From Halorussus caseinilyticus (GTDB lineage: Archaea > Halobacteriota > Halobacteria > Halobacteriales > Haladaptataceae): 64,000 bases of DNA. The notes below the pieces were generated by a model. The model saw only the letters and a list, made by a program, of their open reading frames with translations. It had not been told where the DNA came from and did not search any database. The stretch covers positions 186,001 to 250,000 of the forward strand of contig NZ_CP119809.1 of NCBI RefSeq assembly GCF_029338395.1, written 5' to 3'. This document shows positions 25,717-38,640 of this stretch, one piece after another (the stretch's first letter is position 1; each line of letters starts with the position of its first letter). Made by a program: the position numbers and the translations under genes.

Positions 25717-26577
25717 ATGAACAGAAGAAGTGTACTTAAGAAGATTGGCGGTACTGCGACCGTACTGACCGTAGCGACCCAACCCGCCCTCGGCGGCGAG
25801 CCGGCCGTGGCACAGATGAAAGAACTCGACACCTCTGACCACTCCAACCTCGACGGCGTCACGGTGACGCTGTTCGAGAACGGTCACGCGAAGGTCGAGA
25901 TGTCGGGCACCCGTCCCGCCGACCCGAGCGAGGCGACGGGGTACAGCGTCCGACTCGGCGAACTCGGACAGAATCCGGGCGCACGTGCGCTCGACCGTGC
26001 AAACGCCCGCGTCGAGTCACTGCCGGCCGACGAGGTCCTCGCGCAGGACGGTGTCAGCACGGAGACGACCACGGGCAAGACCGGCTCCGGCTCGGACACG
26101 GCGTCGAGTTCGGACATCGGGACCATGGACCACGGAGGCAACGACGGCGAGGACAACTACGAGGGTGGTCTCTGGGTTCGCTCCGAGGACTCCGCCGACT
26201 TCACGCTGGCCATCACCGAAGGCTGGATCGACTGGACCACCAGCGGCGGCGAAGCCGACTACGTCGACTGGCTGTGGCACGCCACCGCCTGCGCACCCGG
26301 ACTGGCGGACTGGAACATCGACGACGCTGGCCACAGCTACACCGACTGGAGCGGCGACGACGTTGAGGTCAAGTTCTACGGCGATTACTACGACTACGCC
26401 TCGGGCGACGACAGCAAGCGAACTGACTCTTACCACCGGCTGTACGCGTACGGGAACCCCGACGGGTCGATGGACTGGGACACCACTCACTGGTACACCG
26501 GTGAGGACGCCAGCGGATACCGCTTCGACGCCGGGTACTTCTCGGGGTACGACCAGCACGCTGCCGGTCACTGCTAG
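25717..26577 (+). CDS. Tat-exported protein of unknown function, paralogue A
   Basis: A 286-residue secreted protein. MNRRSVLKKIGGTATVLTVA is a Tat signal. The mature part has a beta-rich N-terminal region (VTVTLFENGHAKVEMSGTRP), a Ser/Thr/Gly/Asp linker (about 110-140) and a Trp/Tyr/Asp-rich C-terminal domain (LWVRSEDSADFTLAITEGWI, DWTTSGGEADYVDWLWHATA) ending in Cys. The acidic aromatic domain may bind carbohydrate or calcium, but no known family is recognised. A paralogue follows 149 nt downstream with its own promoter. Confidence 0.75.
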   Translation: MNRRSVLKKIGGTATVLTVATQPALGGEPAVAQMKELDTSDHSNLDGVTVTLFENGHAKVEMSGTRPADPSEATGYSVRLGELGQNPGARALDRANARVESLPADEVLAQDGVSTETTTGKTGSGSDTASSSDIGTMDHGGNDGEDNYEGGLWVRSEDSADFTLAITEGWIDWTTSGGEADYVDWLWHATACAPGLADWNIDDAGHSYTDWSGDDVEVKFYGDYYDYASGDDSKRTDSYHRLYAYGNPDGSMDWDTTHWYTGEDASGYRFDAGYFSGYDQHAAGHC

Positions 26578-26726: not shown

Positions 26727-27599
26727 TTGAAAAGACGAAACTTACTCAAGAAACTCGGTGGTAGCGCGACAGCAGTGACTCTGGCGACCCAGTCGGTACT
26801 CGGCGACGAACCCGAGGTGGCACGGACGATAGACTTGGACACGTCCAGTAATCCGCACCTCGACAGCGTCACGGTGACCCTCTACGCGGACGGTCGGAAG
26901 AACGTCCGGATGTCGGGAACCGCGCCGGCGGAGGCGACCGAAATCAGCGGATACAGCGTCCGACTGCTCGGCCTCTCGAACGCTCAGGGTGAGTACACGC
27001 CCTCGCAGGCGAGCGCCCGAGTCCAGGCGGTCCCGGCCAGCGAGGTCATCTCGTCGAACGACTCCGGCGGTACGGTGAACGGTGAGAACTCCGGGTCGGG
27101 CTCGGACGGCACGTCCAGCGACTCGGACTTCGGCACTGCGAGTCACGGCGGTAATGACGGTCAGAGCGACTACGAAGGTGGTATCTGGGTCCGCTCGGAG
27201 GACTCGGTGGACCTCGACCTCGCCTACACCGAGGGCTGGATCGACTGGACCACCAGCGGCGGTGAAGTCGACTACGTCGACTGGAAGTGGCACGCCGTTC
27301 CGTGTGACACCGGCTGTTCGACGTGGTACATCGAGGATGCCGGCCACAACTACTCGGACTTCGCGGGCGACACCGTCGAAGTAAAGTTCCACGGCGACTT
27401 CTACAATTACGACTTCCCGAGCGACGGCGGGCGGACGGAGGCTCATCACCGACTCTGGACCACGGGTAACCCCGACGGCTCGATGGACTGGACGACCGAC
27501 CACTGGCACAGCGGCGAGCACGCGTGGTCGCTACGCACCGACGCGGGCTGGTTCGACAAGTACGACGAGCACGCGAACCACTGTGCGCAGGGCTGCTGA
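26727..27599 (+). CDS. Tat-exported protein of unknown function, paralogue B
   Basis: A 290-residue paralogue of the preceding gene with the same order: Tat signal MKRRNLLKKLGGSATAVTLA, a beta-rich part (VTVTLYADGRKNVRMSGTAP), a Ser/Gly linker and the C-terminal domain with IWVRSEDSVDLDLAYTEGWI and DWTTSGGEVDYVDWKWHA. Extra Cys residues (CDTGCSTW and the final QGC) suggest disulfides. The start is TTG at 26727, supported by gaggtga at 26713-26719, a rare clear Shine-Dalgarno in this window, and by the signal peptide beginning right there. Confidence 0.75.
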   Translation: MKRRNLLKKLGGSATAVTLATQSVLGDEPEVARTIDLDTSSNPHLDSVTVTLYADGRKNVRMSGTAPAEATEISGYSVRLLGLSNAQGEYTPSQASARVQAVPASEVISSNDSGGTVNGENSGSGSDGTSSDSDFGTASHGGNDGQSDYEGGIWVRSEDSVDLDLAYTEGWIDWTTSGGEVDYVDWKWHAVPCDTGCSTWYIEDAGHNYSDFAGDTVEVKFHGDFYNYDFPSDGGRTEAHHRLWTTGNPDGSMDWTTDHWHSGEHAWSLRTDAGWFDKYDEHANHCAQGC

Positions 27600-30619: not shown

Positions 30620-32035
30620 TCACAAGCCGATGGACTTCTCGTCGGCCTCCCCCGCTGGCGGCAGTGACCGAAGCGCGGGGTGAGCGAGGAAGTAGAGACC
30701 GAACAGCGGCAACGCCGCCCCGAAGAGGTACAGCACCGTCTCGGTGCCGACGTACCCGCCCATCGTCCCGCCGAACAGCGCACCGGTGGGTGCCATAATC
30801 GAAGTCGCGCCCTTCACGAGCGAACTGACCCGGCCCAAAAGCGACTCGTCTACGGCCGACTGGACCAACGTGAACACCATCACGTTGAACGTCCCCGGAA
30901 AGACGGCGGTGGCGAACAACAGGGCCGCAGTGGGCCACGTCCCCGGAACGGTGACGGCACCTGCCAGCGTCACCCCGGCTATCGGATAGCCGACGATGGT
31001 GACGCGACTGACCGAGCGCTCCTCGACGAGGAACGCCCCGGCGCTTCCGACGAACGTCCCGGCACCGATGGCCGCGAGCAACACGCCGTAGGCGTCGGGA
31101 CCGCCCAGCGACTCGGCGAACGCCGGAAGCACCGCGTCGGCCGCCATGAAGCCGAAGTTGATGACCATCGCGCTGAAGATTATCGGGACGAGCGCCGACC
31201 CTCGGACGTAGTCGATGCCGTCACGGAGTTCCGAGAGGTACGACTCGACGGCCCCGCCGTCGGTCTCTCGGGACGACTCGCTTGGCCCGCCGTCGCTCTC
31301 CTGCGGCGACCCGTCCGGTCCGTCGTCGTCCCGTTCGTCGCCGGTCTTCGTGCCGCCGTCGCTCGCGGCTTCTACGTCTCGCTCGCGGCCGTCAGACCTC
31401 TCGCGTTCGGTCTCGTCGCTCTCGCTCGTCTCGCCCGACTTCGGAACGCTGACGCCGAGAAACAGCACCGCGGCGACGGCAAACGTCACCGAGTCCACGA
31501 CGAACAGCGAAGTCGCGCTGACGAGCGCAATCAGCGCACCGCCGATGCCCTTGCTCACCGTGTCGATTGCCCGGACGGAAGTCGAGAACAGCGAGTTGGC
31601 CTTCGTCAGTTGCGCCTTCTCCACGACTCGGGGGAGCGCGGCGTTCTGGGCGGGGTAGACGAACCCGTTGACGAACGTCAGCAACGGCACGAGGACGACG
31701 AGCAACCATATCGAGAGATGGCCCAGCGCCGCCGCCGCGGGGACGACCAACACCCCGACGCCGTTGAGAACCTGCGTGGCGACGAGGACCCGCCGCAACT
31801 CCCACCGGTCTACGAGCGGACCGACCAAGAAGTTGAGCGCGGTCGGAATCTGGACGAGTGCGACCGCCAGTCCCGTGTAGAACGTGGAGTTCGTCAGTTC
31901 CCACACCAGCCACATCGTGGCGACGAAGTAGAGCGAGTCGCCGGTGTCGGTGATGACTCGCCCGCCGAAGAGTCTCAGGAAGGTGGCGTTTCGGAGCAAC
32001 TCGCGATAGCCACCGGCCCTTTCATACAGTCCCAT
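30620..32035 (-). CDS. MFS transporter (possible exporter of the lanthipeptide locus)
   Basis: A 471-residue major facilitator with about 12 helices, similar to the MFS_3/EntS-type drug or siderophore exporters. Motifs: FLRLFGGRVITDTGDSLYFV, ALNFLVGPLVDRWELRRVLV (motif A region) and GFVYPAQNAALPRVV. A long acidic loop (about 65 residues, full of Glu, Asp and Ser) sits between the two halves. The start at 32035 is chosen because the upstream frame runs antisense through the neighbouring gene. It diverges from the DUF6895-like gene beside the lanthipeptide enzymes and could export the product; that link is positional only. Confidence 0.85.
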   Translation of the reverse strand: MGLYERAGGYRELLRNATFLRLFGGRVITDTGDSLYFVATMWLVWELTNSTFYTGLAVALVQIPTALNFLVGPLVDRWELRRVLVATQVLNGVGVLVVPAAAALGHLSIWLLVVLVPLLTFVNGFVYPAQNAALPRVVEKAQLTKANSLFSTSVRAIDTVSKGIGGALIALVSATSLFVVDSVTFAVAAVLFLGVSVPKSGETSESDETERERSDGRERDVEAASDGGTKTGDERDDDGPDGSPQESDGGPSESSRETDGGAVESYLSELRDGIDYVRGSALVPIIFSAMVINFGFMAADAVLPAFAESLGGPDAYGVLLAAIGAGTFVGSAGAFLVEERSVSRVTIVGYPIAGVTLAGAVTVPGTWPTAALLFATAVFPGTFNVMVFTLVQSAVDESLLGRVSSLVKGATSIMAPTGALFGGTMGGYVGTETVLYLFGAALPLFGLYFLAHPALRSLPPAGEADEKSIGL

Positions 32036-32141
32036 GCGGAGGGAATTTTTAACCCTGTAACAAGTATTTTGCTCTCCAATCGGTTTTCCGCGCGGTTCGA
32101 GATGGACAAAGTATTTTTCCGGTAGCCTTCGTCCACGAATT

Positions 32142-33485
32142 ATGAGCGACGAGGCTTCGACGGACGACGTTCGGGAGGCGTTCGACCCGACGCCCCGAGT
32201 TCCGGACCGAGACGTACCCGCGATGGCCCGACGACTCGAAGCGACGACCACCTCGTGGGTAGAAGGCCACGCCGACCGCTTCGACCCCTTCCGGTGGGAG
32301 GACAAACGCGAGCAGAACCTGCGTCGGAAGGCGTTCGGCGAGGCGGGTCTCTACCTCCTGCACGCCCACGAACTCGGCGGCGGCGACGACCTGCAATCGC
32401 TTTCGAGCGTCGTCGCCGACCACGCCAACGACGAGCGATACTTCCGCCTCCTCCAGCGCCGTCCCACGATGGTCCGGAAGTTCGCGTACCCCGCGCTCTA
32501 CGCCGACCGGTCCGGAAACCTGCGCGACGACCGACTCTCGGGCCGCCTCACCGAACTCCTGAACGACGAGGCGGTGTGGGCGAAACAGCGCACCTCCTTC
32601 GAGCGGTTCGACCTCTGGCACGTCGCCAAACTCTCGGGCGTCGAACCGCCCTTCTCGACCGACGGACTGCTCGCAGGGTCGCCCCTCGCCCACCGACCCG
32701 ACCCGTTCCGCGCGACGGCCAAGGACGTGAACGGACTCGTCCACGAACTCATGTTCTGGCGCAATCTCGGCATGGACGCCGCGGGCGCGTCGTTCCCGGA
32801 CGAACCCGCACCCGGCGGCGACCTGCGCGAAGTTCTCACCCTGCTTCTGTTCCGGTACGTGGCCGAACAGAACTACGACGTGGGCCTCGAAGTGGTCATG
32901 TCGGCCGTCCTGCAACGGACGGTCGCCCCCGACTTGGTGCGGACGTTCGTCGGCCACGCCCTGTCTCGCGCGGAAGAACTCGGCTACCTGCCCAAGAGCG
33001 AGTCGAGTCTCGACTCGGACCCCCGGTTCGAGCGCTTCTCGGCGTCGGCCTCCGAGTGGGCCACCCACTACCACGCCAATCTGGTCGCGGGGTTCGCAAG
33101 CCGGGTCCTCTGCGACCACTGGGACGAGTTCGTCGCCGAGTCCGCGCCCGCCGAGAATCACGACTACGACCACGAGGACCTCCTGAAGATGGGCCGGATG
33201 GTCGAAGCCCTGATGGACTACGACCTGCAGTCGGGCGCTCGCCGACTCCGTGACCTCGCCGGAACGTCCGTGGCCGCGGCGTATCCCGAGGCGTTCGACG
33301 CCGCCGTCCGGTTCCTCCGGAACCAGCGCCGCCCGGACGGGACGTTCGGCTACTGGACCGACGTGCGCTCGAAGTACGTCTCGCTGACCGGCGACGGCGA
33401 GCGCTTCGACGAGGAAATCGTCGAATCGACGACCGAGGCGTGTTCGGCGGCGCTGGCGGAAATCGACCAACTGGCGTCCGAGTAG
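32142..33485 (+). CDS. DUF6895-like alpha-helical protein beside the lanthipeptide enzymes
   Basis: A 447-residue soluble, helix-rich protein. The C-terminal part (FDAAVRFLRNQRRPDGTFGY) has the Q-x-x-PDGTFGxW motif of alpha/alpha-toroid repeats seen in terpene-cyclase-like and DUF6895 proteins. Earlier blocks include NLRRKAFGEAGLYLLHAHEL and DVNGLVHELMFWRNLGMDAA. I recall DUF6895 members near peptide-modification genes, but no enzyme activity is established. Its stop lies 6 nt from the stop of the convergent LanC gene. A TATA-like tatttttccgg lies about 30 nt upstream. Confidence 0.6.
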   Translation: MSDEASTDDVREAFDPTPRVPDRDVPAMARRLEATTTSWVEGHADRFDPFRWEDKREQNLRRKAFGEAGLYLLHAHELGGGDDLQSLSSVVADHANDERYFRLLQRRPTMVRKFAYPALYADRSGNLRDDRLSGRLTELLNDEAVWAKQRTSFERFDLWHVAKLSGVEPPFSTDGLLAGSPLAHRPDPFRATAKDVNGLVHELMFWRNLGMDAAGASFPDEPAPGGDLREVLTLLLFRYVAEQNYDVGLEVVMSAVLQRTVAPDLVRTFVGHALSRAEELGYLPKSESSLDSDPRFERFSASASEWATHYHANLVAGFASRVLCDHWDEFVAESAPAENHDYDHEDLLKMGRMVEALMDYDLQSGARRLRDLAGTSVAAAYPEAFDAAVRFLRNQRRPDGTFGYWTDVRSKYVSLTGDGERFDEEIVESTTEACSAALAEIDQLASE

Positions 33486-33491
33486 GCCCCC

Positions 33492-34682
33492 TCACTCGAA
33501 CCGCGTCACCGACGGCAACTCGTCGGGGCGGACCAACCGCAAGAGCGCGTAGCCGATTCCGGCGGTTCCGGCGAAGAAGGTGGGGTCGTACAGTCCGCGC
33601 GAGCGATGGGCTAACTCGTAGTGGCCCTGCGACTCCTTGCGCTCGATTGCTCGGTCGGCCAAGCGCCGCGCTTGCTCGGCGTACTCGCCGTCCCCCGTGT
33701 GGCGCGACAGGTCCACGAGGAGGTTGACTTGGGCGAAGGTGCCGTCGCAGACGGCGTCCGACCGACCCAACTCGGGGTCGAAGGCGTCGAGTCGGTCCAC
33801 GTCCCGCGCCACGGCGTCGGACTCGCAGTACTCCGCGCTCCCGAGTCGCGCGCTCCCGACGCCAGCGAGTCCGAACCGCCACCCGAGTTGGTAGTGTGGC
33901 AGGAAGACCCAGTTGCTCCGCCAGTTTCGCTCGCGGTCCGAGTAGAAGGCGTTCTCGAACGCAATCGCGTCGTCGGCCGCCCGCCGGAACTCGTCTCTGC
34001 CGGTGTGGTCGGAGAGGCGGTAGAGCGCGTAGGCGATTCCCGCCGCGCCGTGGCCCATCCCGGTCGAAAAGCTTCGGACGCCCTCGTCCCAACTCGTGTC
34101 CCACACGCGATACCCCCACTTGTCGTACCGGTCGTCCAACAGGTGTTCCCCGCACCGAACTGCGCGCTCCTTCGCAACCGACGCGCCCGACCGCTCGTAG
34201 AGTCCCAACAGTCCCGTCAGCGCGCCCGCCGCGCCGGTCAGCACGTCGTAGCGTTCGTCGCCGCGAATCGCCTCGGCGGTTATCTCGCGGGCGAACTCGA
34301 CCGCCAACTCCTCGTACCGGGTTTCCCCCGTCAGTTCGTGCATCACCGAGAGACCGTAGACGAGCGCGCCGGTCCCGGTGCCCGCTCCGAGACCGACGCC
34401 CTTGACCAGTTCCCCGGTCTCCTCCTCGAACAGGTAGCGAACCGCGTCGTAGGCCGACTCTCCGTAGGACTCGCCCGGAAAGCAACGGTGCATCGCGGCG
34501 AAGTACGTGGCCACCCCCAACTGTCCGGAGTACAGTCCCTTCTGGCCTCGCAGGGAAGGTTTCCCCTTTGAGGACCCGTAGCCGACCCACCCGGCGTCGC
34601 CGCCCGGCAGGTCGAACCGGGCGTCCGCCACGTCGTCGGCTATCGCTTCGGCCTCCTCGCGCAGTGTCTCGTTCGGTATCAT
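33492..34682 (-). CDS. LanC-type lanthionine cyclase (separate from LanM dehydratase)
   Basis: A 396-residue toroid protein corresponding to the cyclase half of a class II LanM. Family blocks: KGLYSGQLGVATYFAAM (49-65), ELVKGVGLGAGTGTGALVYG (91-110), GMGHGAAGIAYALYRL (208-223, with His211) and the C-terminal FAGTAGIGYALLRL (370-383). It should add Cys thiols to dehydrated Ser/Thr. Two of three canonical zinc ligands appear lost: GWRFGLAGVG (267-276) has Arg269 where GWCxGAPG is expected, and VCDG (311-314) replaces CHG. Its ATG overlaps the dehydratase stop as TGATG, so the two are translated together. Confidence 0.88.
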   Translation of the reverse strand: MIPNETLREEAEAIADDVADARFDLPGGDAGWVGYGSSKGKPSLRGQKGLYSGQLGVATYFAAMHRCFPGESYGESAYDAVRYLFEEETGELVKGVGLGAGTGTGALVYGLSVMHELTGETRYEELAVEFAREITAEAIRGDERYDVLTGAAGALTGLLGLYERSGASVAKERAVRCGEHLLDDRYDKWGYRVWDTSWDEGVRSFSTGMGHGAAGIAYALYRLSDHTGRDEFRRAADDAIAFENAFYSDRERNWRSNWVFLPHYQLGWRFGLAGVGSARLGSAEYCESDAVARDVDRLDAFDPELGRSDAVCDGTFAQVNLLVDLSRHTGDGEYAEQARRLADRAIERKESQGHYELAHRSRGLYDPTFFAGTAGIGYALLRLVRPDELPSVTRFE

Positions 34683-36586
34683 CACAATCTGTTTCCGGGT
34701 AGCTCTCGCTCGCTCTCGGGCACGTCGGAACCGCGGAGACACGACTCTATCAGTCCGGTCTGGAAGGTTCGGTCCTCGGCGGACAACCGGTCGATTCGAC
34801 GCTGGACGCGTTCGAGACCCGCCGCCGCCGACCGGCACACCGTCTCATCCTCGAAGGTAATCGCCTCCGCGTCGGCCGAGGTGTGGAACTTCGGCACGTC
34901 CCGCCGGAGCAACGCTTCGCGCTCCGCCGCGACGATTTCCGAGACCGACTCCGGCGTGGTCGTGGAGTACTCGGCCCACGTCTTCGAGAGGGTGTCGCGT
35001 ATCTCGTTCCCGAAGACGACGCCGTTTCGCAGGGGCGTGGGGTTCGTCAGCGTGTTCAGAAGCGACTCGTACTGGGCCGTGTCTTGGAGGACGCATCTGA
35101 GTCGTACCCCGTCGAACCGGTCGGTCACGTCGTCTTTCACCTCGTCCGGGGCGCTCGCAACCGCGTCGTAGGCCGCCTCGAATCCCTCGACTATCCGGTC
35201 TGCGAACAACTCCGGCGGCGCGGGGTCGCCCTCGTAGAGCGGGTAGTTCTCGTCGTCCTCGACTCCGGGTCGCCGGTACTCGAAGTCCATCGCGTCCGTG
35301 TTGACGTGCGTCCAGACGAGCGTCCGGGTCGTCGCTCGCTCGGCGTCGTTCACGCCGAGTCCGGACTTGTCGGTCTCGCTTCGCGCGTCGTGCAGTTGTA
35401 CCATCTGGGTCTTGAGGACGCTCGACTCGTGGACTTCCTTTCGCAACTTGTCGAACAACTCCGTCCGGGGCACCTCGTACAGCGACGGTGCCAGCACGGT
35501 TTCGGCGTCTACCAGCACCGCCGACTCGTCGCTGGCTAGCAGGTTCTCGCCGTGGCAGTCCGAGACGTTCAACAGGTACAGCACGAACGACAGCGCCCCC
35601 GTCTTCCGGTAGTACCGCTCGACATCCGACTTGCTCGTCAGGGTCGCCCGTTCGACGCTCTCCATCCACCCGTAGTCCCCGCGAGTTCGCAGGGCCGGAG
35701 TCGGGAGCGTCGGAAACGCGTCGAACCGGTCGGCCAACCAGTTCAAAAAGCCGTAAAACTCCCTCTCGGCGTCGAGTTCGCGGGGTTTGTAGAACACCTC
35801 GCCGCGCTCGAACTCGACGCGAAACACCGACCTCCCGCGCTCGTGTGGGTCACCGTTGGATTCGACGCGCGCCACGTCGCCGACGGTCCCCTCGCCGACC
35901 ATCCCGCAGATGTCGTCGTAGTCGGCGTGCAGTCGCTCGGCGAACTCCGCGACCGATTCGCGCCACTGGGTCGTGACGACCGAGAGCAGTCGGGCCACCA
36001 TCGCGTACTCCTCGAAGAACGACTCCATCCGACCGTCGTAGAACGCCCGGACGTAGCTCTCGTACCACTCTCTGGAGTCGGGGGACCGCCGCTCGTCCGC
36101 GATAACCTCCGGGTCTCGCTCGACGATGAACCTGATAAAATCGAGGTGAAGCGGCTGTGCGCAGAGGTCGGTCAACCGGTCGAGCAACTGGGCTTCGAGA
36201 CTCGCTATCGCGTCGTCGGATAGTCTCGCCGTTGGTGCCGAGTCGAGGACACTCTCGACGCAGTGGTCGGCAATCGGAGCGACGATTTCCCGAAAGGGAA
36301 CCTCGCGGCGCTCCCCGCCCGAGAGGGGTTCCCGAACCGACTTCAGGCGGTCGTAAACGTCGCCGAACGCTTCGACCCAGTCGGGCAACTTCTCGTTGGG
36401 CCACGTTTCGAGGTTCGCGTACTCGACGGCGTCGCTCCCGAAGTTCTCCCGGAGTTCCTCGGCGAGCGACTCGTCTACGTAGTCGAACGCTTCGAGCGTG
36501 GTTCCGTCTTCGGTCGGCGCGCGGTGGCCGTCGTCGATTCGCTCCTGAATCAGTTCCGCGGACGCCGCGAGGTTCCTGACATCCAT
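34682..36586 (-). CDS. LanM-type lanthipeptide dehydratase (DUF4135), stand-alone
   Basis: A 634-residue protein matching the dehydratase half of class II LanM enzymes, which phosphorylate Ser/Thr of a precursor peptide and eliminate phosphate. Kinase-like motifs are intact: GDPHERGR (245-252), YKPR (266-269), SDCHGENLLA (342-351) and VDAETVL (359-365). Further conserved blocks are WTHVNTDAMDF (425-435), then VRLRCVLQDTAQYESLLNTL and EREALLRRDVPKF. Typical LanMs are about 1000 residues with a fused cyclase; here the cyclase is the next gene. A TATA-like GTTTATC lies about 25 nt upstream. The precursor genes begin about 75 nt further upstream. Confidence 0.93.
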   Translation of the reverse strand: MDVRNLAASAELIQERIDDGHRAPTEDGTTLEAFDYVDESLAEELRENFGSDAVEYANLETWPNEKLPDWVEAFGDVYDRLKSVREPLSGGERREVPFREIVAPIADHCVESVLDSAPTARLSDDAIASLEAQLLDRLTDLCAQPLHLDFIRFIVERDPEVIADERRSPDSREWYESYVRAFYDGRMESFFEEYAMVARLLSVVTTQWRESVAEFAERLHADYDDICGMVGEGTVGDVARVESNGDPHERGRSVFRVEFERGEVFYKPRELDAEREFYGFLNWLADRFDAFPTLPTPALRTRGDYGWMESVERATLTSKSDVERYYRKTGALSFVLYLLNVSDCHGENLLASDESAVLVDAETVLAPSLYEVPRTELFDKLRKEVHESSVLKTQMVQLHDARSETDKSGLGVNDAERATTRTLVWTHVNTDAMDFEYRRPGVEDDENYPLYEGDPAPPELFADRIVEGFEAAYDAVASAPDEVKDDVTDRFDGVRLRCVLQDTAQYESLLNTLTNPTPLRNGVVFGNEIRDTLSKTWAEYSTTTPESVSEIVAAEREALLRRDVPKFHTSADAEAITFEDETVCRSAAAGLERVQRRIDRLSAEDRTFQTGLIESCLRGSDVPESERELPGNRL

Positions 36587-36662: not shown

Positions 36663-36779
36663 CTACGCGGTGATGGAACACCAGTTGTCGGCTAACTGCT
36701 GTTCGGGGGCGTCTTCGTCGCTGTGGTCCTCTTCGAATTGTTCGATGAGTTCGTCCGGACTGATGTTTTCAGCGGACAT
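36663..36779 (-). CDS. Lanthipeptide precursor-like peptide 1 (38 aa)
   Basis: Leader MSAENISPDELIEQFEEDHS, then DEDAPEQQLADN and the core end WCSITA. It shares the S-P-D-E-x-I-E-Q-(F/L)-E leader and the W-C-x-I-T-A end with two further genes upstream. The only Cys is C34; Thr37 lies three residues after it, and no Thr precedes it in the core. Its own TATA box (36803-36817) is about 30 nt before the ATG. It is the precursor nearest to the dehydratase gene, in the same direction. Acidic leader plus a Ser/Thr/Cys end is what LanM enzymes use; no mature product is known. Confidence 0.8.
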   Translation of the reverse strand: MSAENISPDELIEQFEEDHSDEDAPEQQLADNWCSITA

Positions 36780-36885: not shown

Positions 36886-37014
36886 CTACTCTTTGGACGG
36901 CTCTTGGGCGGTGATGGCGCACCACGCGTCGTGGGTCGGCGGGTTGTCGTCCTCGCCGTGGCCTTCTTCGAGCTGTTCGATGAATTCATCCGGACTGACA
37001 TCTTCTGCGAATAT
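36886..37014 (-). CDS. Lanthipeptide precursor-like peptide 2 (42 codons, ATA in place of ATG)
   Basis: In frame from 37014 the codons read ATA-TTC-GCA-GAA, then DVSPDEFIEQLEEGHGEDDN, PPTHDAWCAITA and QEPSKE. This aligns over its length with precursors 1 and 3, but the codon matching their ATG is ATA, preceded by TTT and an in-frame TGA. No ATG, GTG or TTG is available before the leader motif. The TATA box at 37042-37055 keeps the usual distance. Either the gene has lost its start codon recently, or ATA is used on a leaderless mRNA. The core keeps THDAWC and WCAIT. Confidence 0.6.
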   Translation of the reverse strand: MFAEDVSPDEFIEQLEEGHGEDDNPPTHDAWCAITAQEPSKE

Positions 37015-37041
37015 AAATCAGAATACTAACTGCCCTGTCCA

Positions 37042-37080: not shown

Positions 37081-37203
37081 TTATTCCTTGGTCGCGGTGA
37101 TGGTACACCAAGCGTCGTGGGTCGGCGGGCTGTCGTCTTCGCCGCTGTGGTCGTTTTCGAACTGTTCGATCATTTCGTCGGGGCTAATGTCTTCAGCAGA
37201 CAT
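37081..37203 (-). CDS. Lanthipeptide precursor-like peptide 3 (40 aa)
   Basis: Leader MSAEDISPDEMIEQFENDHS, then GEDDSPPTHDAWC and TITATKE. One Cys (C33) is preceded by Thr28 and followed by Thr34, Thr36 and Thr38. Leader residues 1-16 are nearly identical to precursor 1, while the core matches precursor 2 (PPTHDAWC), so the three genes form a tandem family with recombined parts. Start ATG 37203 is supported by the TATA box at 37226-37244. An in-frame ATG at 37323 would add a non-homologous extension and is rejected. Confidence 0.82.
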   Translation of the reverse strand: MSAEDISPDEMIEQFENDHSGEDDSPPTHDAWCTITATKE

Positions 37204-37383: not shown

Positions 37384-38640
37384 ATGGAAATCGGCTACGT
37401 AGACTACGGGTATCCGAGCTATCCGTTAAAAAAGTTGGACAACGGTTACGTAATCGCCGACGTTTCTATGGACGAAGTTCACCGGAACCATCAGAAACAG
37501 GTGGAAAATCAAGTGGAGGTCGCCGTTACCGCCGACGAACTCGGGTACGACTACGCTCTCCATCCGGAACACCACTTCCTGATGCAGAACGGGTCTGCCA
37601 ACAATCCCCTGTTCACGCAGTCCGCGGTCGCTTCCCGGACCGAGGACATCCGCTTGCTCCAGACCGCCATCATCCTCCCGTGGAACGAACCGATTCGCAT
37701 CGCGGAACAGGCCGCGATGCTCGACATCCTCAGCGACGGCCGCGTTGACATCGGCATCGGCATCGGGACGAGAACGCTGGAGAACGAACCGCTCGGACAG
37801 TACTGGGGCGCGTCGTCGCAAAACCGGGCGGAGGCGTGGGAGTCGTTCGAGGAGAAGTACGAGATACTGGTTCAGGCGTGGACCGAGAACTTCGTGGACC
37901 ACCACGGCACCTTCCACGACGTTCCCCCGAAACACACCATCTGGGAGAACAAACACGACTACTACTACCTGAAACACACCGAGGACAGTCCCGCGCCGAC
38001 GGAATTCATGTCCGCGGAAGGCGACGAGGTTACGCTGAACTCTCTGCCTATCTTCCCCCAACCGAAACAGGACCCGCACCCGATGATGTGGCGTCCCACC
38101 ATGTCCGAGGGGTCGGTGAAGTGGGCGGCAGAGCGCGGCATCAACGGGGCCGTCCTCCCCGGCACGATTTCGCAGGCGAAGAACCTGATAGACACCTACT
38201 ACGAAGTCGCGGAGGAAGCGGACTGGCCCGACCACCGACCCGAACACGACGGCGAACCGTTCAAGTTCGGTTGGGACGCCGACCGACGCCGCGGCGTCGC
38301 CTGTTGCGTGACGGTGTTCAACACCGATGTCGCAGACGACGAGACGCTCGAACGCTGGCGACTCGGCCAAGAGTTCGTCCAGAGTAACAACATCGGCGCG
38401 AAACCCGACGTTAGCGGGGCCGCAATCGACGCGACGCCGCAAATTGAGTCCGACGAGACGCTCCCGATGGTGACGGACACCGAGGGAATCATCGAGAGAA
38501 TCACCGAACTTAAAGAGGCCATCGGCTACGAGGACTTCATCCTGTTCGTGAAGGCGAGCAACCCCGGCCTGTCCCGTGAGGAGACCGAGGCACAACTCCG
38601 AGCGTTCTCCGAGGAAGTCGCGCCGCACTTCGAGGAGTAA
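37384..38640 (+). CDS. LLM-class flavin-dependent oxidoreductase (luciferase-like)
   Basis: A 418-residue TIM-barrel flavin enzyme of the bacterial-luciferase-like superfamily. LGYDYALHPEHHFLMQNGSA contains the E-H-H-F motif (62-65) typical of LuxA-type monooxygenases. RVDIGIGIGTRTLENEPLG is the usual glycine-rich flavin phosphate segment, and MWRPTMSEGSVKWAAERGIN is a late conserved block. It diverges from precursor gene 3 across an AT-rich 180-nt region, which places it in the lanthipeptide locus. It could oxidise the peptide. Some members of this superfamily are F420-dependent reductases that convert dehydroalanine to D-alanine in lanthipeptides (LxmJ in lexapeptide). Confidence 0.85.
   Translation: MEIGYVDYGYPSYPLKKLDNGYVIADVSMDEVHRNHQKQVENQVEVAVTADELGYDYALHPEHHFLMQNGSANNPLFTQSAVASRTEDIRLLQTAIILPWNEPIRIAEQAAMLDILSDGRVDIGIGIGTRTLENEPLGQYWGASSQNRAEAWESFEEKYEILVQAWTENFVDHHGTFHDVPPKHTIWENKHDYYYLKHTEDSPAPTEFMSAEGDEVTLNSLPIFPQPKQDPHPMMWRPTMSEGSVKWAAERGINGAVLPGTISQAKNLIDTYYEVAEEADWPDHRPEHDGEPFKFGWDADRRRGVACCVTVFNTDVADDETLERWRLGQEFVQSNNIGAKPDVSGAAIDATPQIESDETLPMVTDTEGIIERITELKEAIGYEDFILFVKASNPGLSREETEAQLRAFSEEVAPHFEE

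Follow-up and report, generated by a model that had tools for sequence, protein, structure and literature searches.

A split class II LanC-like protein of Halorussus caseinilyticus has lost two of three canonical zinc ligands

The lanthionine cyclases of classes I, II and IV are regarded as zinc-dependent, the metal being considered essential. LicM2, a solved class II synthetase, has such a zinc cyclase. In the class III enzyme ThurKC, the NisC ligands Cys284, Cys330 and His331 correspond to Ser726, Phe770 and Asp771; no metal was seen, and the D771A exchange abolishes labionin formation, with Asp771 proposed as the general base (PMC10604976). CcaM, of the LanMbC type, has a zinc-free cyclase domain that is needed by its dehydratase, and no lanthionine is made (PMC10676384). 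Ligand-less LanM-like proteins of the CA_C0082 type are known in Clostridium (PMC10301443). Zinc-free cyclase domains are therefore already known from class III and LanMbC; the new twist described here is a split class II cyclase with an Arg/Asp replacement. It is encoded in a stretch of 64,000 nucleotides of the haloarchaeon Halorussus caseinilyticus (contig NZ_CP119809.1, positions 186,001 to 250,000), hereafter the window, to which all coordinates refer unless a locus is named. In the archaeal lanthipeptide literature that we searched, zinc-site loss in haloarchaeal LanMs was not mentioned, nor did we find this replacement described for any split cyclase of class II.

The gene (33492..34682, minus strand) runs from an ATG at 34682 to a stop whose last base is 33492, and encodes a LanC-like protein of 396 aa that consists of a standalone cyclase fold of the class II type. 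Alignment with LicM2 placed R269 (in GWRFGLAG; codon CGG, 33876..33878, minus strand) opposite the Cys of WCHGAPG, and C312-D313 (in VCDGTF; TGC and GAC, 33744..33749, minus strand) opposite the Cys-His of LCHG. A profile built from 24 relatives aligned the WChG and lChG zinc motifs of LicM2, GCR2, LanCL1 and LanCL2 at the same positions. Where LanC cyclases have Cys, Cys and His or Cys, the window protein has Arg269, Cys312 and Asp313, so that two of the three canonical ligands are absent as judged by alignment. The first-pass annotation, which had named these residues and His211 from motifs, was confirmed by the translation and the LicM2 alignment, and its view that the canonical zinc site is unusable was supported. 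It had also derived GWRFGLAG from GWCxGAPG; Arg does stand at the Cys position, but the motif of the closest relatives is WWC[YN]G(L/V), and measured against it position 267 has also changed, from W to G, and position 270 from Y to F. The general-acid His of LanC enzymes was retained as H211 in GMGHGAAG (34050..34052, minus strand; PMC9934072, PMC10604976), its equivalent being thought to protonate the enolate (PMC9934072), together with the near-invariant D146. A single sequencing error was rejected as the cause, since two ligands differ and CGG lies two base changes from a Cys codon.

The protein belongs with class II by profile and by predicted structure. PF05147 matched with an E value of 4e-44 (151 bits over 343 positions, the domain being whole), and the best NCBIfam match was the LanM model TIGR03897, over its C-terminal half (positions 546-931), at 240 bits; this falls short of the cut-off, which is set for the full protein, since the gene product covers the cyclase half alone. 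Against this, the class IV model scored 76 bits and the class III model NF038151 59 bits, the latter with a cut-off of 575; as a standalone protein without fused lyase or kinase, it is not a LanKC. The AlphaFold2 model (predicted local distance difference test, pLDDT, 91.1; predicted template modelling score, pTM, 0.93) had LicM2 as its best solved structural match, with a Z score of 40.9 and a root-mean-square deviation of 2.6 over 373 residues, and showed the alpha,alpha-toroid, which indicates that the fold is retained; CuvL, GCR2, LanCL proteins, CylM and ThurKC followed. The preceding gene (34682..36586, minus strand) encodes a LanM-type dehydratase of 634 aa with DUF4135 (PF13575, E 1e-90; TIGR03897, 365 bits), and the last base of its stop codon is also the first base of the cyclase start codon (TGATG). 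It corresponds to the N-terminal LanM half, keeps the kinase-like residues, differs at 5 of 52 conserved columns and looks intact. By sequence, the two genes are one class II LanM cut in two. The locus thus resembles LicM2, CylM and the haloarchaeal LanMs in fold and sequence (LicM2, E 6.6e-14), in the DUF4135 partner, in the general-acid His and in the type of its Ser/Thr- and Cys-bearing precursors; it differs from them in the separate cyclase gene and in the change of Cys and His ligands to Arg and Asp.

LANC_like genes occurred in 30 of 391 genomes of the class. A scan of the genome contigs with the window protein alone found no relative, and with the split-family alignment as query it gave 23 loci. 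The ligand set was H-C-C-C or H-C-C-H in 51 of the 60 cyclase domains examined, fused haloarchaeal LanMs being mostly C/C/C. Further split LanC genes were present in G399 (same genus), G151 (Halopiger djelfimassiliensis, L116), G410 (metagenome-assembled genome, MAG, QS_1_68_20, L115), G124, G346 and G434, and all of them were H-C-C-H. The five nearest split homologues, at 40-52% identity to the window LanC, all keep C/C/H. The alignment with haloarchaeal LanC-like proteins that the first-pass annotation had proposed as a check thus left the close relatives zinc-competent by sequence and the window protein not. In a maximum-likelihood tree the window protein was nested within the split clade (six rows, support 100/99), and since that clade is C/C/H, the ligand loss is derived and falls on the window's own branch. 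The genome (99.7% complete) has one PF05147 and one DUF4135 gene; no second LanC-like gene is therefore available to supply zinc chemistry in trans. In the split LanC of G346 (L023, 1459-2826, minus strand), five TDSYAGTE-like repeats are inserted around residue 90.

Across 57 haloarchaeal homologues, 45 columns were conserved in >=85% of the sequences, and the only two at which the window protein departed were those of residues 269 and 313 (P = 0.003 for both departures hitting zinc ligands at random). On these alignments the loss is selective and lineage-specific, which suggests that the protein was retained for a zinc-free job.

Precursor genes lie upstream of the dehydratase/LanC pair, all on the minus strand, and share the leader MSAE(D/N)ISPDE.IEQFE: precursor peptide 1 (37081..37203; MSAEDISPDEMIEQFENDHSGEDDSPPTHDAWCTITATKE), precursor peptide 3 (36663..36779; MSAENISPDELIEQFEEDHSDEDAPEQQLADNWCSITA) and, between them, paralogue 2 (36886..37017; ...AEDVSPDEFIEQLEEGHGEDDNPPTHDAWCAITAQEPSKE), an open frame with ATA for ATG that is probably silent. 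The cores DAWCTITATKE, DAWCAITAQEPSKE (the copy without ATG) and DNWCSITA have W-C-x-I-T in common (3/3), with a single Cys, Thr at +3 and T, S or A at +1, which bears out the earlier claim of a single core Cys. The Cys-to-Thr spacing equals that of archalan alpha, whose methyllanthionine ring joins Cys2 and Thr5, that is, Cys(i)-Thr(i+3) (PMC10105419). A search of 392 genomes with the window precursor gave clear matches in its own genome only. The split clusters of L116, L115, G399, G124 and G346 have the same two-gene layout, mostly with a DUF6895 gene, but they keep C/C/H, and the precursors beside four split genes (G399, G151, G124 and G346) have two Cys (C-x-x-x-S/T-C, that is, CxxxSC or CxxxTC) where the window precursors have one (WCxIT). 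Loss of the second precursor Cys and loss of the zinc ligands fall on the same branch; because this coincidence is a single event, causation is not demonstrable.

We tentatively favor, as the likeliest reading, a subunit with the cyclase fold that works without zinc, still binds the peptide after dehydration and allows or assists the closure of a Cys-x-x-dehydrobutyrine (Dhb) ring. The Cys-Cys-His zinc site would have been replaced by Arg-Cys-Asp on the window's own lineage. The conserved Thr of the core would become Dhb through the dehydratase, the dehydrated product would be bound by LanC acting as a subunit, and no zinc would be needed to close the methyllanthionine ring of Cys-x-x-Thr. Asp313 might act on the Cys thiol as general base and His211 on the enolate as acid, with Arg269 possibly paired with Asp313 or stabilizing negative charge. 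Because a peptide with one nucleophile would need little enzyme control, the zinc site could have been let go. Spontaneous ring closure in single-Cys peptides, which the first-pass annotation had suggested, is possible; its proposal of zinc-free work or a scaffold role found precedents in ThurKC (PMC10604976) and CcaM (PMC10676384).

The zinc-independent subunit is supported by the selective loss, the H-C-C-H relatives and the nested position in the tree, by the retained fold, H211 and D146, by the constant W-C-x-I-T of the cores and the ring spacing of archalan alpha, by the single PF05147 gene, and also by the third ligand slot. Asp313 falls in the slot of ThurKC Asp771, and Asp in this slot is common to ThurKC, the class III PDB entry 9wop and the fused LanMs of G005 and G272 (S/A/D and S/S/D), both of which have an intact-looking dehydratase. 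ThurKC also resembles the window protein in being without a zinc site and in its toroid fold (Z 32.5); it differs in its three-domain lyase-kinase-cyclase architecture, in having Ser in the first slot and Phe in the second where the window has Arg269 and keeps Cys312, and in the change of NisC His212 to Asp, a His that the window protein keeps. The class III slots, read from PDB sequences with the help of an unmasked piece of a Streptomyces LanKC, are S/A/G at the first and F/A (mostly Phe) at the second position, which Arg269 and Cys312 do not fit. The third is Asp in ThurKC and 9wop, Asn in PneKC and SalKC, and Gln in the Streptomyces protein, so the ThurKC parallel is suggestive only. Several points weigh against the zinc-independent subunit. 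Asp is not a universal mark, and the class III enzymes have small residues at the first position where the window has Arg. The residue after the first ligand, a proposed enolate stabilizer, is Phe270, where NisC has Tyr285 and LanMs have His, Lys or Asn. Zinc-ligand mutants of lacticin 481 synthetase still dehydrate while cyclization is impaired, according to a title cited in PMC9934072 and PMC11667668. In addition, one of the three precursor copies is without ATG.

Other haloarchaeal LanMs have lost ligands separately: besides G005 and G272, these were G104 (C/Y/A) and G379 (C/Y/C), the latter with Arg in place of the catalytic His, and a decayed LanM-type group in G124, G123 and G052. The dehydratases of G005, G272, G104 and G379 have <=1 conserved column changed; therefore, zinc-site loss with a retained dehydratase recurs in haloarchaea. 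The S/A/D and S/S/D proteins (L185, 6597-9896; L186, 6800-10039) come from two genera and are otherwise well conserved. No precursor was recognized in the neighborhood inspected beside them, so they are not demonstrable as cyclases. At L184 (9000-12335), a fused LanM with C/Y/A ligands has major facilitator superfamily (MFS) and luciferase-like (LLM) neighbors and precursors ending in DSCWSSSCN. A wider reading of these alignments, which we regard as doubtful, is that class II gave rise, independently of class III, to a metal-independent thioether cyclase in which an Arg/Asp pair, with Asp as general base, took the place of the Cys/His zinc ligands, the S/A/D and S/S/D fused LanMs being a second case.

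Alternatively, the protein may be a pseudo-cyclase that gives no help in ring closure and is kept for dehydratase folding, leader binding or core presentation, with any rings forming slowly and unaided, if they form, and dehydro residues perhaps reduced by the neighboring LLM enzyme. This is possible rather than probable; a non-catalytic dehydratase partner is nearly as likely as zinc-independent help in ring closure. The dehydration by the lacticin 481 synthetase mutants and the conserved kinase residues of the window dehydratase favor it, as does the LLM gene adjoining the precursors, which is related to LxmJ, an F420 LLM enzyme by which dehydroalanine (Dha) of a class V lanthipeptide is reduced to D-Ala (PMC8498797). 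Against it, Cys and Thr(+3) are kept in all core copies and H211 and D146 in the protein, and the CcaM precedent belongs to YcaO clusters, whereas the nearest YcaO gene lies ~200 kb off and none is near the LanC cluster. The locus is in fact not of the LanMbC type: CcaM is fused, has a class III-type cyclase domain and makes no lanthionine, and the window cyclase is split and class II-type. CA_C0082 of Clostridium acetobutylicum is likewise LanM-like without zinc-binding residues, but the residues of the dehydratase are missing from it too, and no further known lanthipeptide genes occur in that genome (PMC10301443).

Recent inactivation, with the ligand losses as the first hits of a beginning decay of the cluster, is unlikely. 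The ATA codon of precursor 2 and the inversion of the DUF6895 gene relative to relatives would fit it, as would the divergence of the LanC, which departs from 16 of the 115 columns that are identical in its five split-clade relatives, the next most divergent member (L096) doing so at 10 of 109. LanC identities to the other split members were slightly lower for the window than for L096, and dehydratase identities slightly higher; this reads as a mild acceleration in the window cyclase with the fold core kept. Opposed to decay are the open frames, the normal third-position GC, the intact-looking dehydratase, two intact precursors, and the restriction of changes among the most conserved columns to the ligands, with an Arg codon two changes from Cys.

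Least probable is a remodeled site that holds zinc or a different metal through Cys312 and Asp313, with His211 or water as a conceivable further ligand: both Cys and Asp can coordinate metals, and homology places H211 in an adjacent central loop, but Arg269 would add positive charge, the His equivalent acts as proton donor in known LanC (PMC9934072), and in the predicted model the loops facing the toroid center (by homology) hold no Cys or His beyond H211 and C312, which gives the other metal site with Asp313 raised earlier no positive support and makes three alternative Cys/His residues in zinc geometry unlikely.

The neighboring genes point to tailoring. A DUF6895 protein is encoded convergently with LanC (32142..33485, plus strand; PF21836, E 3e-31); its homologues adjoin the split LanC in four of the five nearest relatives (L095, L097, L098, L099), on the same strand, and the copy in L095 is broken into two frames. 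Its predicted structure was poor (pLDDT 57). A tailoring role is likely by analogy, because a title cited in PMC13352647 reports a lasso-peptide epimerase that belongs to DUF6895. The LLM oxidoreductase (37384..38640, plus strand; PF00296, E 9e-41) is a candidate dehydro-residue reductase, and in the 12 genomes searched its full-length relatives are mostly near LanM genes; members of this subfamily neighbor LanM genes in G123 (two copies), G104, G124 and G399. A tie between LLM genes and broken cyclases was considered and rejected, as only two of four loci with LLM beside LanM (the window and G104) fit it, which is too few. Since both neighbors resemble known tailoring enzymes, the product may contain D-residues besides or instead of the ring. 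An MFS transporter frame (30620..32305, minus strand; PF07690), with its true start probably near residue 95, is a candidate exporter, and homologues adjoin lanthipeptide genes in L096, L176 and L184. Tandem paralogous proteins of ~290 aa with secretion-like N termini are encoded at 25717-26577 and 26727-27599 (plus strand).

Zinc-site loss recurs among haloarchaeal LanM-type enzymes, and the zinc-free mechanism of class III is still open. A natural class II cyclase-type protein that has given up its zinc ligands and little besides forms, with zinc-bearing sisters at ~50% identity, a clean pair for testing the role of zinc, and the same pair addresses the replacement of the His slot by Asp and the persistence of cyclase folds as dehydratase partners.
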